Below, one piece after another: positions 16,922-20,501 of a DNA stretch of 42,649 bases. Below the pieces are notes generated by a model. The model saw nothing but the letters and a program-made list of their open reading frames with translations, was not told the origin of the DNA and searched no databases. Source of the DNA: Candidatus Yanofskyibacteriota bacterium. Its GTDB lineage: Bacteria; Patescibacteriota; Minisyncoccia; 2-02-FULL-40-12; GWA2-44-9. The position numbers and the translations under genes were made by a program. Location of the stretch: assembly GCA_016181045.1 (NCBI GenBank), contig JACPAB010000005.1:1-42649 (forward strand), given 5' to 3'. The stretch's first letter is position 1. Every line of letters begins with the position of its first letter.

Positions 16922-16994
16922 ACATATTCCTTTTTAAACAACCCTACGCACACACTATCACAACCGATTCTAATAGAAAAACAATTGTGGATAA

Positions 16995-17019
16995 CTTTCG
17001 GGTTTCTTTCGGGTATAAT
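16995..17019 (+). promoter_or_regulatory. Candidate promoter/operator of the LexA-methyltransferase gene
   Basis: Direct repeats CTTTCGGGT at 16995-17003 and 17006-17014 (11-nt phase) overlapping -10 TATAAT at 17014-17019; ATG at 17026. Confidence 0.5.
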
Positions 17020-17025
17020 AAAAGT

Positions 17026-18480
17026 ATGACATTAACACCGAAGCAAAAACAAATTCTTGATTTCATAAAAACATATTCTGACAAAAAGGGGTTCTCTCCT
17101 ATTCACGAAGAGATCGCCAAAAAGTTTAAACTCGCTATCTCTACCATTCACGAACACCTCTCTGCCCTAGAAAGAAAGGGCTACATCAAAAAAGACCCCG
17201 GCCATGCCCGAACAATTGAGGCAATCAGTCCAAATAAAAATTCCGGTCTGGTCAAAATCCCCCTCCTCGGCACCATCGCCGCCGGCCAACCCATTGAAGC
17301 CATACAAACAAATGAAACGATAGCCGTTCCCAAAAGCAAAATTAAGCCGGGTAATATTTACGCCCTAAGGGCGGTTGGTAGTAGTATGGTGGATGAAAAT
17401 ATAAATGACGGTGATGTGGTTTTAGTAAGACAACAGTCGGTGGCTGAAAACGGAGAAAAAGTCGTGGCACTTTTAGATAACTATGGGGCAACTCTTAAGA
17501 AATTTTACAAAGAACAGGGGCATATACGACTACAACCAGCCAACAAAGACATGGAGCCGCTTATTATTAGAAATGGCAAAGATATTTCGGTACAAGGAAT
17601 AGTGCTTGATGTCATAAGAGAAGAAAATTATCCAACAATTAATTTCCCGCAACCGCGAGAATATAAAGATCATAAAAAACTCCCCCTTAATAAAATAATC
17701 TGCGGTAACGCAATAGAAGTCATGGAGAAATTTCCTTCTAATTCGGTTGATATTGTGGTCACCTCGCCACCGTATGACGCAGTACGCGACTACAAGGGGT
17801 TTTCTCTTGATTTGCATGCAGCAGGAAAAGAAATACATCGCGTCCTAAAAGATGGTGGTATCGCAGCTATGGTTATCCAAGATCAGACAAAGAACTTTGG
17901 GAAAACGCTAACATCTTTCAGAACAATCGTGGACTGGTGTGACAACATTGGATTTAAACTTTTTGAAACAGTAATTTATAGAAAATATGGAGCAGAAGGT
18001 GCGTGGTGGAACAAACGTTTCCGCGTAGACCACGAGTATATCCCAGTCTTCTTAAAAGGAGACCGGCCTCGATACTTCAACAAAGAGCATTTGAAGATTC
18101 CCTCAAAACACGGGGGTAAAACAATGACAGGCGGAGGAACGCGGCTTACGAATGGGGTTCGTATAGCAACTCGCGCAATAACAATAAATCCGATGAAATG
18201 CCGTGGGACAATCTGGGAATATCTAACTGCTGGCGACGGAAGCCGACTAAAGCACCTGCATCCAGCAACATTTCCAAACCAGCTCCCCTACGACTTTATT
18301 CGGTGCTTCTGCCCAGCAAGCGGAGTTGTGCTAGACCCATTTATCGGTAGTGGGACTACTGCAGTAGCAGCAAAGAACCTCAATAGAAGCTACATCGGCA
18401 TAGACATAGCCAAGGAATATTGTGAGATTGCCGAAAAAAGAATTAAGATCGAAACGCCTTCGCAAAACAAACTAATTTAG
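17026..18480 (+). CDS. lexA-like fusion: LexA repressor/S24 autoprotease fused to a beta-class (TSPPY) DNA methyltransferase
   Basis: N-term MTLTPKQKQILDFIKTYSDKKGFSPIHEEIAKKF..STIHEHLSALERKGYI (LexA wHTH), cleavage site TIAAGQPIEA, catalytic Ser GSSMVDENINDGD and Lys ATLKKF; C-term VVTSPPYDAVRDY and DPFIGSGTTAVAAKNLNRSYIGIDI; one uninterrupted frame. Confidence 0.93.
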   Translation: MTLTPKQKQILDFIKTYSDKKGFSPIHEEIAKKFKLAISTIHEHLSALERKGYIKKDPGHARTIEAISPNKNSGLVKIPLLGTIAAGQPIEAIQTNETIAVPKSKIKPGNIYALRAVGSSMVDENINDGDVVLVRQQSVAENGEKVVALLDNYGATLKKFYKEQGHIRLQPANKDMEPLIIRNGKDISVQGIVLDVIREENYPTINFPQPREYKDHKKLPLNKIICGNAIEVMEKFPSNSVDIVVTSPPYDAVRDYKGFSLDLHAAGKEIHRVLKDGGIAAMVIQDQTKNFGKTLTSFRTIVDWCDNIGFKLFETVIYRKYGAEGAWWNKRFRVDHEYIPVFLKGDRPRYFNKEHLKIPSKHGGKTMTGGGTRLTNGVRIATRAITINPMKCRGTIWEYLTAGDGSRLKHLHPATFPNQLPYDFIRCFCPASGVVLDPFIGSGTTAVAAKNLNRSYIGIDIAKEYCEIAEKRIKIETPSQNKLI

Positions 18481-19442
18481 GGTAATTTGTCTGGACTCTC
18501 TAATGCATACTCAAATCCAGAGGCGGTTGCACTTCTAATAACAAAAGATAGTGGGTTTTGAGCTAATACAATATCGTAATTACTCTGCGTAGGACTGTCC
18601 CCTCCTTTAGTAAATTTATAGAGAGAAAAATTTTCCCAGGTCCAATCTTCATCTTTATACTCCCAGTCAGTTGAAGCCGAAAGTAGATTTATAAACTTTT
18701 TGACTTTTTCTTTTTCGGCTTGTTTTATATTGTATAGGTCCTTAGTTTTATCCAGGTTCTTGGGAATTCCGCTTGTATCTGAAATATAAAGTTTATCTCC
18801 ACCTCTTTTTCCTTTTCCTATAAGGCCTATATCAGTAAAAACTTTTTTAAGATTTAACATTAAGATTCTCAACGCGTGTTTATCTATATAAAACATCTTA
18901 TTCAAAACATTATCCTTATCACTGATCCCTAAATACTGAAACCAGTCCAAACAATTTTCTGGGTAATTAAATAGATTTTTAAAGGTTCCGTCTGTATAAA
19001 GTAAAGTGGGGACTGCTTTGTCTGGAATGGAGATCTTCAGGTCCGACCCTATTATGCTCAGTAATAAATGAATAGTTCCTAATGGATACTTCAGCTTAAA
19101 ATTGGTTTTCATGTCGTAGTTTCTCATTATATTTGGCTGAATACACTGATCATAATTACTCCAATTGGAGGGGGTCTTTGCTTTATTCAACAAAACCATA
19201 TGATGCCCGATGCTTTTTATATCTTTTCTAAAAATATCAATATCCAAGAATACACAATCTTTAGCAGACAACCCCTTCTCCAATATGAGTAATTTGCCAT
19301 CATAAAATCCTTTTATTTTCCACCCCAAATAATGAGACATCAGCAATCCACACAAAAGCCCGTCACTATCTGGACTTAAAATGCAATTCTTACCTCTCTC
19401 AAATACCCAAGGGTAGTTCTTCTTTACTTCGCTAATTTTCAT
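18477..19442 (-). CDS. Uncharacterised protein, weakly DHH-phosphoesterase-like; convergent with the LexA-methyltransferase gene
   Basis: ILSPDSDGLLCGLLMSHYLG...CVFLDIDIFRKDIKSIGHHMV; stop overlaps methyltransferase stop by 4 nt; start chosen at MKISEV. Confidence 0.5.
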   Translation of the reverse strand: MKISEVKKNYPWVFERGKNCILSPDSDGLLCGLLMSHYLGWKIKGFYDGKLLILEKGLSAKDCVFLDIDIFRKDIKSIGHHMVLLNKAKTPSNWSNYDQCIQPNIMRNYDMKTNFKLKYPLGTIHLLLSIIGSDLKISIPDKAVPTLLYTDGTFKNLFNYPENCLDWFQYLGISDKDNVLNKMFYIDKHALRILMLNLKKVFTDIGLIGKGKRGGDKLYISDTSGIPKNLDKTKDLYNIKQAEKEKVKKFINLLSASTDWEYKDEDWTWENFSLYKFTKGGDSPTQSNYDIVLAQNPLSFVIRSATASGFEYALESPDKLP

Positions 19443-19484
19443 ATTTAGAATCCTACTCTGTAATCGTTCTGAAGACAAATCGTC

Positions 19485-20501
19485 TCAAAAATGCCCATAA
19501 CAACAGTTCTCTCGGAAATTCGGCTGGCGGAGGGAGAGGAGGTTGATGATGGCGTTCGGACGCCAGTCATAGGCCAGAGCGAGAGCGGAGATGTCCTGGC
19601 CTTTTTCGTTGATGGCTTGGACCATTACCGGTTCGGCCCGGCCGATGGCGTAGGCCACAGAGACGAGGCACTGCTTGGCTTTGTCGTGAGCGACGAGCTC
19701 CTTGGCAACATGGCGGGCCATGTATGCGCCGGAGCGGTCAACTTTGGTCGCGTCTTTTCCTGAAAAGCATCCCCCGCCGTGCGGAATAAGGCCGCCGTAT
19801 GTGTCCACCATGATTTTCCTTCCCGTCAGGCCTGTGTCGGCTTCAAAACCTCCCCGCACAAACTTCCCCGTTGGATTCACAAGTATCTCGACATTCTCAT
19901 ATTCTTGAGAATATGAGAATGTCGGTTTGATAAGTTTTTCTGTGATGGCCTCGCGTATCTCACTTTGTTCGATACCTTCGGAATGCTGGGTGCTGACAAG
20001 AATCGTTTTGACTTTGCCGTCCTGAATTGTCACCTGGGTTTTACCATCGGGACGGAGCCAGGGCAAAACCGAACTCCGACGCAAGTTCTCAAGGCCTTTA
20101 GCCAGCCGATGAGCAAGCACGACTCCAAGCGGAAGGAATTCCGGCGTCTCGTCGGTAGCATAGCCATACATTATGCCCTGATCTCCCGCTCCTCCGGTAT
20201 CCACGCCTTGAGCGATATCGGGTGATTGCTTAACTATATTTACAATAACCTTGAGCTCGTCGGTGTAGCCGATGTCGGCATACACGCGCCTGGCTACGGC
20301 TTCATAGTCAACGTCGGCTTTGCTCGTAATTTCCCCGCCAACGACCAAAAGGCCATGGCTTCCGAATGTCTCCACCGCAACCCGGCTGAACGGGTCCTGC
20401 TTCAAACACTCGTCCAGGATTGCGTCCGATATTTGGTCGCAGACCTTGTCGGGATGCCCCGACGTAACACTCTCCACGGTATATGTTCTTGGTACGAACA
20501 T
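19485..20501 (-). CDS. metK: S-adenosylmethionine synthetase (C-terminus short)
   Basis: VTSGHPDKVCDQISDAILDECL, GAGDQGIMYGYATDE, GGGCFSGKDATKVDRSGAYMAR; ends at CCYGHF. Confidence 0.95.
   Translation of the reverse strand: MFVPRTYTVESVTSGHPDKVCDQISDAILDECLKQDPFSRVAVETFGSHGLLVVGGEITSKADVDYEAVARRVYADIGYTDELKVIVNIVKQSPDIAQGVDTGGAGDQGIMYGYATDETPEFLPLGVVLAHRLAKGLENLRRSSVLPWLRPDGKTQVTIQDGKVKTILVSTQHSEGIEQSEIREAITEKLIKPTFSYSQEYENVEILVNPTGKFVRGGFEADTGLTGRKIMVDTYGGLIPHGGGCFSGKDATKVDRSGAYMARHVAKELVAHDKAKQCLVSVAYAIGRAEPVMVQAINEKGQDISALALAYDWRPNAIINLLSLRQPNFRENCCYGHF

Follow-up and report, generated by a model that had tools for sequence, protein, structure and literature searches.

A LexA repressor joined to a DNA methyltransferase in Paceibacteria, predicted to be the self-regulating modification enzyme of a type II restriction-modification system

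Based on analysis of a 42,649-nucleotide stretch of a Candidatus Yanofskyibacteriota genome (assembly GCA_016181045.1, contig JACPAB010000005.1; hereafter the window), we here describe a gene that, judged from its sequence, encodes a complete LexA repressor continued by an N6/N4 DNA methyltransferase of the beta class. The window is part of contig C8 of an assembly of 457 kb that is 84.6% complete. The best reading of the collected sequence evidence is that the fusion is a predicted autorepressing methyltransferase, not a global regulator of the SOS response, and that it provides the modification activity of a type II restriction-modification (R-M) system, with the cognate endonuclease assigned through linkage. 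We further propose, with somewhat more confidence than doubt, that RecA-triggered self-cleavage of this autorepressing enzyme makes it an R-M homeostat.

Results

The elements recognised in the preliminary description, i.e. a LexA winged helix-turn-helix (wHTH), an Ala-Gly cleavage site, a Ser-Lys dyad and the methyltransferase motifs TSPPY and DPFIGSGTT, are all present in one uninterrupted frame (Table 1). The TIGR00498 lexA model matches residues 2-199 over its full length (180.7 bits, cut-off 110.95), and a linker of about 17 residues then leads to the methyltransferase part, where N6_N4_Mtase (PF01555) of Pfam covers residues 241-471 at 138 bits and MTase_II of PADLOC scores 151.5 bits. 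Motif IV precedes motif I, the beta order, and relatives of this domain with solved structures include CcrM, PvuII and N4-cytosine methyltransferases. The ATG is taken as the start since an in-frame GTG at 16987 falls within the promoter. The fusion is the sole N6_N4 methyltransferase of the assembly. Regarding the two genes that the preliminary description suggested looking for, recA is found in the same assembly, while no separate lexA was detected at its 84.6% completeness, the other S24 match being partial (34.6 bits, in a 194-aa frame).

Table 1 Features of the fusion locus, in positions of the window
Feature	Position	Strand	Remarks
TGTGGATAAC element, DnaA-box-like	16986..16995	+	just upstream of the predicted operator
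Predicted operator, direct repeat TTTCGG-N5-TTTCGG	16996..17012	+	exact repeat in promoter, period 11 bp
-10 box TATAAT	17014..17019	+	abuts the predicted operator
LexA-methyltransferase fusion gene	17026..18480	+	484 aa, one open frame of 484 codons
LexA wHTH, residues 2-63	17029..17214	+	PF01726 (LexA_DNA_bind), 64 bits
Recognition-helix residue Glu43	17152-17154	+	within the LexA wHTH
S24 peptidase / dimerisation domain, residues 79-193	17260..17604	+	PF00717 (Peptidase_S24), 98.3 bits
Ala86-Gly87, predicted self-cleavage site	17281..17286	+	Ala-Gly pair conserved across fusions
Catalytic dyad	Ser120 17383-17385; Lys158 17497-17499	+	within the S24 domain
Beta-class N6/N4 amino-methyltransferase domain, residues 217-484	17674..18477	+	PF01555, PADLOC MTase_II
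Methyltransferase motifs	TSPPY 17761-17775; DPFIGSGTT 18334-18360	+	motif IV; motif I
Probable restriction endonuclease, convergent	18477..19478	-	333 aa with a TTG start (321 aa if ATG at 19442 is used); its end overlaps that of the fusion gene

An assembly chimaera is excluded, since the same fusion is found at full length in 16 other genomes (44-76% identity, no internal stops) among the 384 searched of the class, here called Paceibacteria since the named relatives of the fusion are Parcubacteria, and on further GTDB contigs from named Parcubacteria. The two-domain architecture hence recurs in independent genomes in one frame, and neither the frameshift or assembly join nor the consistent separation into two genes that the preliminary description had raised was found.

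Directly ahead of the gene, TTTCGGGTTTCTTTCGGGTATAAT (16996-17019) joins the direct repeat to the -10 box, and since the latter ends only 6 bp before the ATG (17014-17026), the fusion mRNA is probably leaderless. A perfect 6-bp direct repeat with a period of 11 is located at most 110 bp upstream in 75 of 96 fused genes, as compared to 1.9 in dinucleotide shuffles, no other period being comparably enriched; of 45 homologs of this methyltransferase that are not fused, just one has it upstream. For 77 of the 90 operators in forward orientation, a -10-like box lies -2 to +6 bp from the repeat (14% by chance). Period 11 also scores 56 against 21-29 for neighbouring periods in other upstream regions from these loci (n=785), an excess possibly stemming from shared intergenic DNA next to LexA genes. 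In genome G082, two loci beside a fusion (L217 and L228, beside L014) possess a second, inverted operator copy about 43 bp from the first, towards the divergent side.

The adjacent element TGTGGATAAC was considered as the LexA operator and rejected because copies recur across the window, with four exact occurrences (6037, 6762, 11161 and 16986) and 11 with at most one mismatch, against 1.96 expected. It is also found upstream of many LexA fusions, and is possibly a general promoter or replication-linked element.

The assignment of the repeat as operator is in agreement with its covariation with the protein. When the 67 LexA columns are ranked by mutual information with the repeat, residue 43 of the recognition helix comes first (z 22.8), with E or Q accompanying TTCGG/TTAGG, F, Y or H accompanying TTCTA/TTCGA, and K accompanying TTCGC. 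This pairing holds in 93 of 94 cases; the site of the sole exception, L097, appears mis-called, a CCGAA-type repeat also being present in its upstream DNA. Residue 43 and the operator bases may represent a simple specificity code for LexA modules.

The predicted operator is local. The exact sequence TTTCGG-N5-TTTCGG occurs once in the 457-kb genome, at the fusion's own promoter, and matches with one mismatch number five, compared to eight for a control pattern. In 16 genomes, exact matches include the fusion promoters and the remainder is at about control level, with G057 departing from this (7 matches versus 1). No operator-type repeat is located upstream of recA, nor upstream of the endonuclease genes (0 of 60 loci), and no regulon was detected in the assembly, at 84.6% completeness.

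All 92 fused and all 19 free LexA proteins have the cleavage Ala-Gly, the Ser and the Lys, which are among just 15 invariant columns of 126 aligned S24 positions. The wHTH is more variable.

Almost every relative of the methyltransferase, whether fused to LexA or not, has beside it a homolog of the 333-aa product encoded by the convergent neighbouring gene, at more than 60 loci in many bacterial and archaeal phyla. Because this neighbour accompanies the methyltransferase family so widely, the locus is read as a type II R-M system. The neighbour has no match in Pfam, NCBIfam or PADLOC, and a sequence search of the Protein Data Bank also failed to identify a family. Many genuine restriction enzymes belong to no known family, so that the missing match does not exclude membership in the system. 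Its predicted structure is of high confidence (model predicted local distance difference test score, pLDDT, 95.4), and Foldseek returned only weak matches, to RecJ/Cdc45 (DHH), with E 4.5e-3 at best and template modelling scores of at most about 0.31, hence no fold family is claimed. The invariant motifs SPDSDG, FLD.EIFR and S.G.HM resemble those of DHH phosphoesterases, and the protein may represent a restriction nuclease of a new type.

In other fusion classes, the convergent partners are often recognised restriction enzymes, comprising TaqI, MvaI/BcnI, Endonuclease_7/His-Me, BsaWI, Bsp6I, BglII and HNH types, as well as one weak PvuII match. The downstream neighbour is convergent in 83 of the 94 fusions for which downstream sequence is available, mostly with overlapping ends or a few bp apart. 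The assembly has a single match to the S-adenosylmethionine synthetase gene metK (19485-20501, minus strand), situated immediately upstream of the endonuclease gene and in the same orientation; metK is absent from the corresponding position in all other fetched loci.

We collected 122 distinct LexA-like open reading frames, about 96 of them fused, in which the C-terminal partners are methyltransferases of nearly every kind, i.e. N6_N4, C5, D12, Eco57I/N6_Mtase and MT-A70. Several genomes carry more than one fusion, G219 as many as four. At least 44 changes of methyltransferase class (20 classes) occur on the LexA tree, and in pairs such as L004/L176 and L028/L166 near-identical LexA parts are linked to different methyltransferases. 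From these comparisons, LexA is considered a module that is shuffled between methyltransferases. In two loci, L103 and L124, LexA is fused to an HTH_17 domain.

Other phyla have homologs of the methyltransferase that are not fused to LexA, and in a minority of cases the LexA wHTH alone is retained. Among 287 genomes sampled from the phylum, most matches outside the class are stand-alone LexA proteins. Within Paceibacteria, stand-alone LexA genes are located directly upstream of methyltransferase genes in L151, L153, L154, L156-L158, L180 and L181; at two further loci, LexA adjoins DpnI (L152) and RhuM (L120). That the fusion derives from a phage or plasmid was considered and not retained, no record in the phage and plasmid collections covering at least 80% of the query.

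Discussion

Based on these findings, we propose that the fusion serves a type II R-M system as both modification enzyme and transcriptional regulator, and that it would operate using the following mechanism. The LexA domain would dimerise and bind the period-11 repeat over its own promoter, repressing the gene and keeping the methyltransferase at a set level, a step strongly supported by the sequence. RecA filaments would form, above all once under-methylated DNA of the host has been cut by the partner endonuclease. In response, the S24 domain would cut between Ala86 and Gly87, freeing the wHTH and derepressing the gene, and the released S24-methyltransferase part would re-methylate the chromosome together with newly made protein. 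Such a negative-feedback homeostat would use self-cutting as the signal and the methyltransferase as the response. More speculatively, the derepressed methyltransferase transcript may run antisense into the convergent endonuclease gene and lower its expression, since the overlapping ends leave no intergenic room for a terminator. The proposal combines the sequence findings and the postulated repression and cleavage with two observations from the literature, namely self-repression by modification enzymes that carry an N-terminal HTH, and SOS induction when a type II R-M system is lost or out of balance (PMC3874152).

Several points weigh against this proposal. The convergent neighbour is probably the restriction enzyme of the system, a role read only from linkage. 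The covariation at residue 43 comprises only three independent pairs when supported tree branches are used, all three agreeing, and about 20 on the unrestricted tree. The AlphaFold2 model of the whole fusion is poor (pLDDT 67.6) and tells nothing about domain arrangement. At least four variants (L017/L048, two genes in L043, and L046) have lost S24 and kept the wHTH, mostly along with the repeat, indicating that autorepression does not need cleavage. Cleavage and its dependence on RecA are predictions, and RecA-triggered derepression is accordingly rated as likely but unproven.

The same S24-less variants favour a plain autorepressor, in which S24 serves only to dimerise the wHTH and cleavage is irrelevant, the protein resembling M.SsoII or M.EcoRII with a DNA-binding module borrowed from LexA. 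Self-repressing modification enzymes are known (PMC3874152), again compatible with such a simple device. However, the Ala-Gly, Ser and Lys are invariant across all 92 diverse fusions, which dimerisation alone does not require, and we therefore hold the plain autorepressor to be rather unlikely, if still a serious candidate.

The preliminary description envisaged that DNA damage separates the wHTH from the S24-methyltransferase part, giving damage-gated methylation, or methylation tethered at operators that relocates after SOS; removal of the wHTH would then alter where or how well the enzyme methylates, not the amount made. The self-cleavage part of this idea is compatible with the conserved site and dyad, whereas the R-M role and the single target at the own promoter were missed. 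Tethering could matter, as a passage of PMC6100179 describes inhibition of M.SsoII methylation by DNA bearing the regulatory site, and the cleavage machinery is intact. Nevertheless, a single recognisable operator would affect very few molecules, relocation has little to act on as there is no regulon, and the conserved overlap of operator and promoter points to transcription. We consider a change in the site or efficiency of methylation improbable; what was called damage-gated methylation is more aptly described as autorepression of a protective methyltransferase that damage would relieve.

That the fusion is the SOS master repressor of the genome, with the methyltransferase as a passenger or deployed at SOS promoters, would fit with its being the only LexA found alongside recA, but is very improbable given the single operator at its own promoter, the control-level number of one-mismatch sites, the recA upstream region without an operator-type repeat, and the finding that stand-alone LexA genes of Paceibacteria, too, often immediately precede methyltransferase genes or lie beside DpnI.

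The predicted autorepressing fusion combines traits of several known systems. As in enzymes of the M.SsoII, M.EcoRII and Ecl18kI type, a single protein acts as modification enzyme and also represses its own promoter (PMC3874152), a pattern matched here at sequence level by the N-terminal HTH and a predicted operator overlapping the own promoter. In contrast to these enzymes, regulation falls to an entire LexA, autoprotease included, that could in principle be cut by RecA filaments, and the same module is found on C5, D12, Eco57I-like, MT-A70 and N4/N6 methyltransferases. With the LexA SOS repressor (TIGR00498), the fusion shares the wHTH, the Ala-Gly site, the Ser-Lys dyad and the predicted operator over the promoter, but it differs in the C-terminal methyltransferase, the single operator and the lack of a detectable regulon. 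The period-11 spacing matches that of the alphaproteobacterial LexA box GTTCN7GTTC (PMC3091678). In R-M systems controlled by C proteins, a dedicated regulator within the locus likewise binds its own promoter; however, C proteins are small separate proteins timing endonuclease expression, whereas here the regulator is fused to the methyltransferase and the 60 endonuclease genes lack an operator.

A LexA-methyltransferase fusion is not described in the literature that we found, and LexA goes unmentioned in a 2025 R-M review. The 2017 study of the Patescibacterial SOS network (doi 10.1111/1462-2920.13826) lies outside that comparison and is the main caveat to novelty; a passage of PMC7739468 cites this study (Sanchez-Osuna, Barbe and Erill 2017) among works on evolved direct-repeat LexA recognition. 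We rate the fusion as a variant of the autoregulatory-methyltransferase kind, in which the whole LexA as regulator would be the new part.

More broadly, and tentatively since we place it slightly below even chances, LexA of Paceibacteria may largely have left SOS control to become a detachable and swappable R-M controller, every copy having its own covarying operator, where self-inflicted DNA breaks would raise the methyltransferase through RecA-triggered cleavage and lower the endonuclease through convergent overlapping transcription. R-M systems must balance protection against cutting, and how imbalance is sensed is an open question. If the proposed mechanism is true, a LexA/RecA break sensor built into the protective enzyme itself would represent a direct, closed-loop answer, and a textbook global regulator would in these organisms have turned local and modular.
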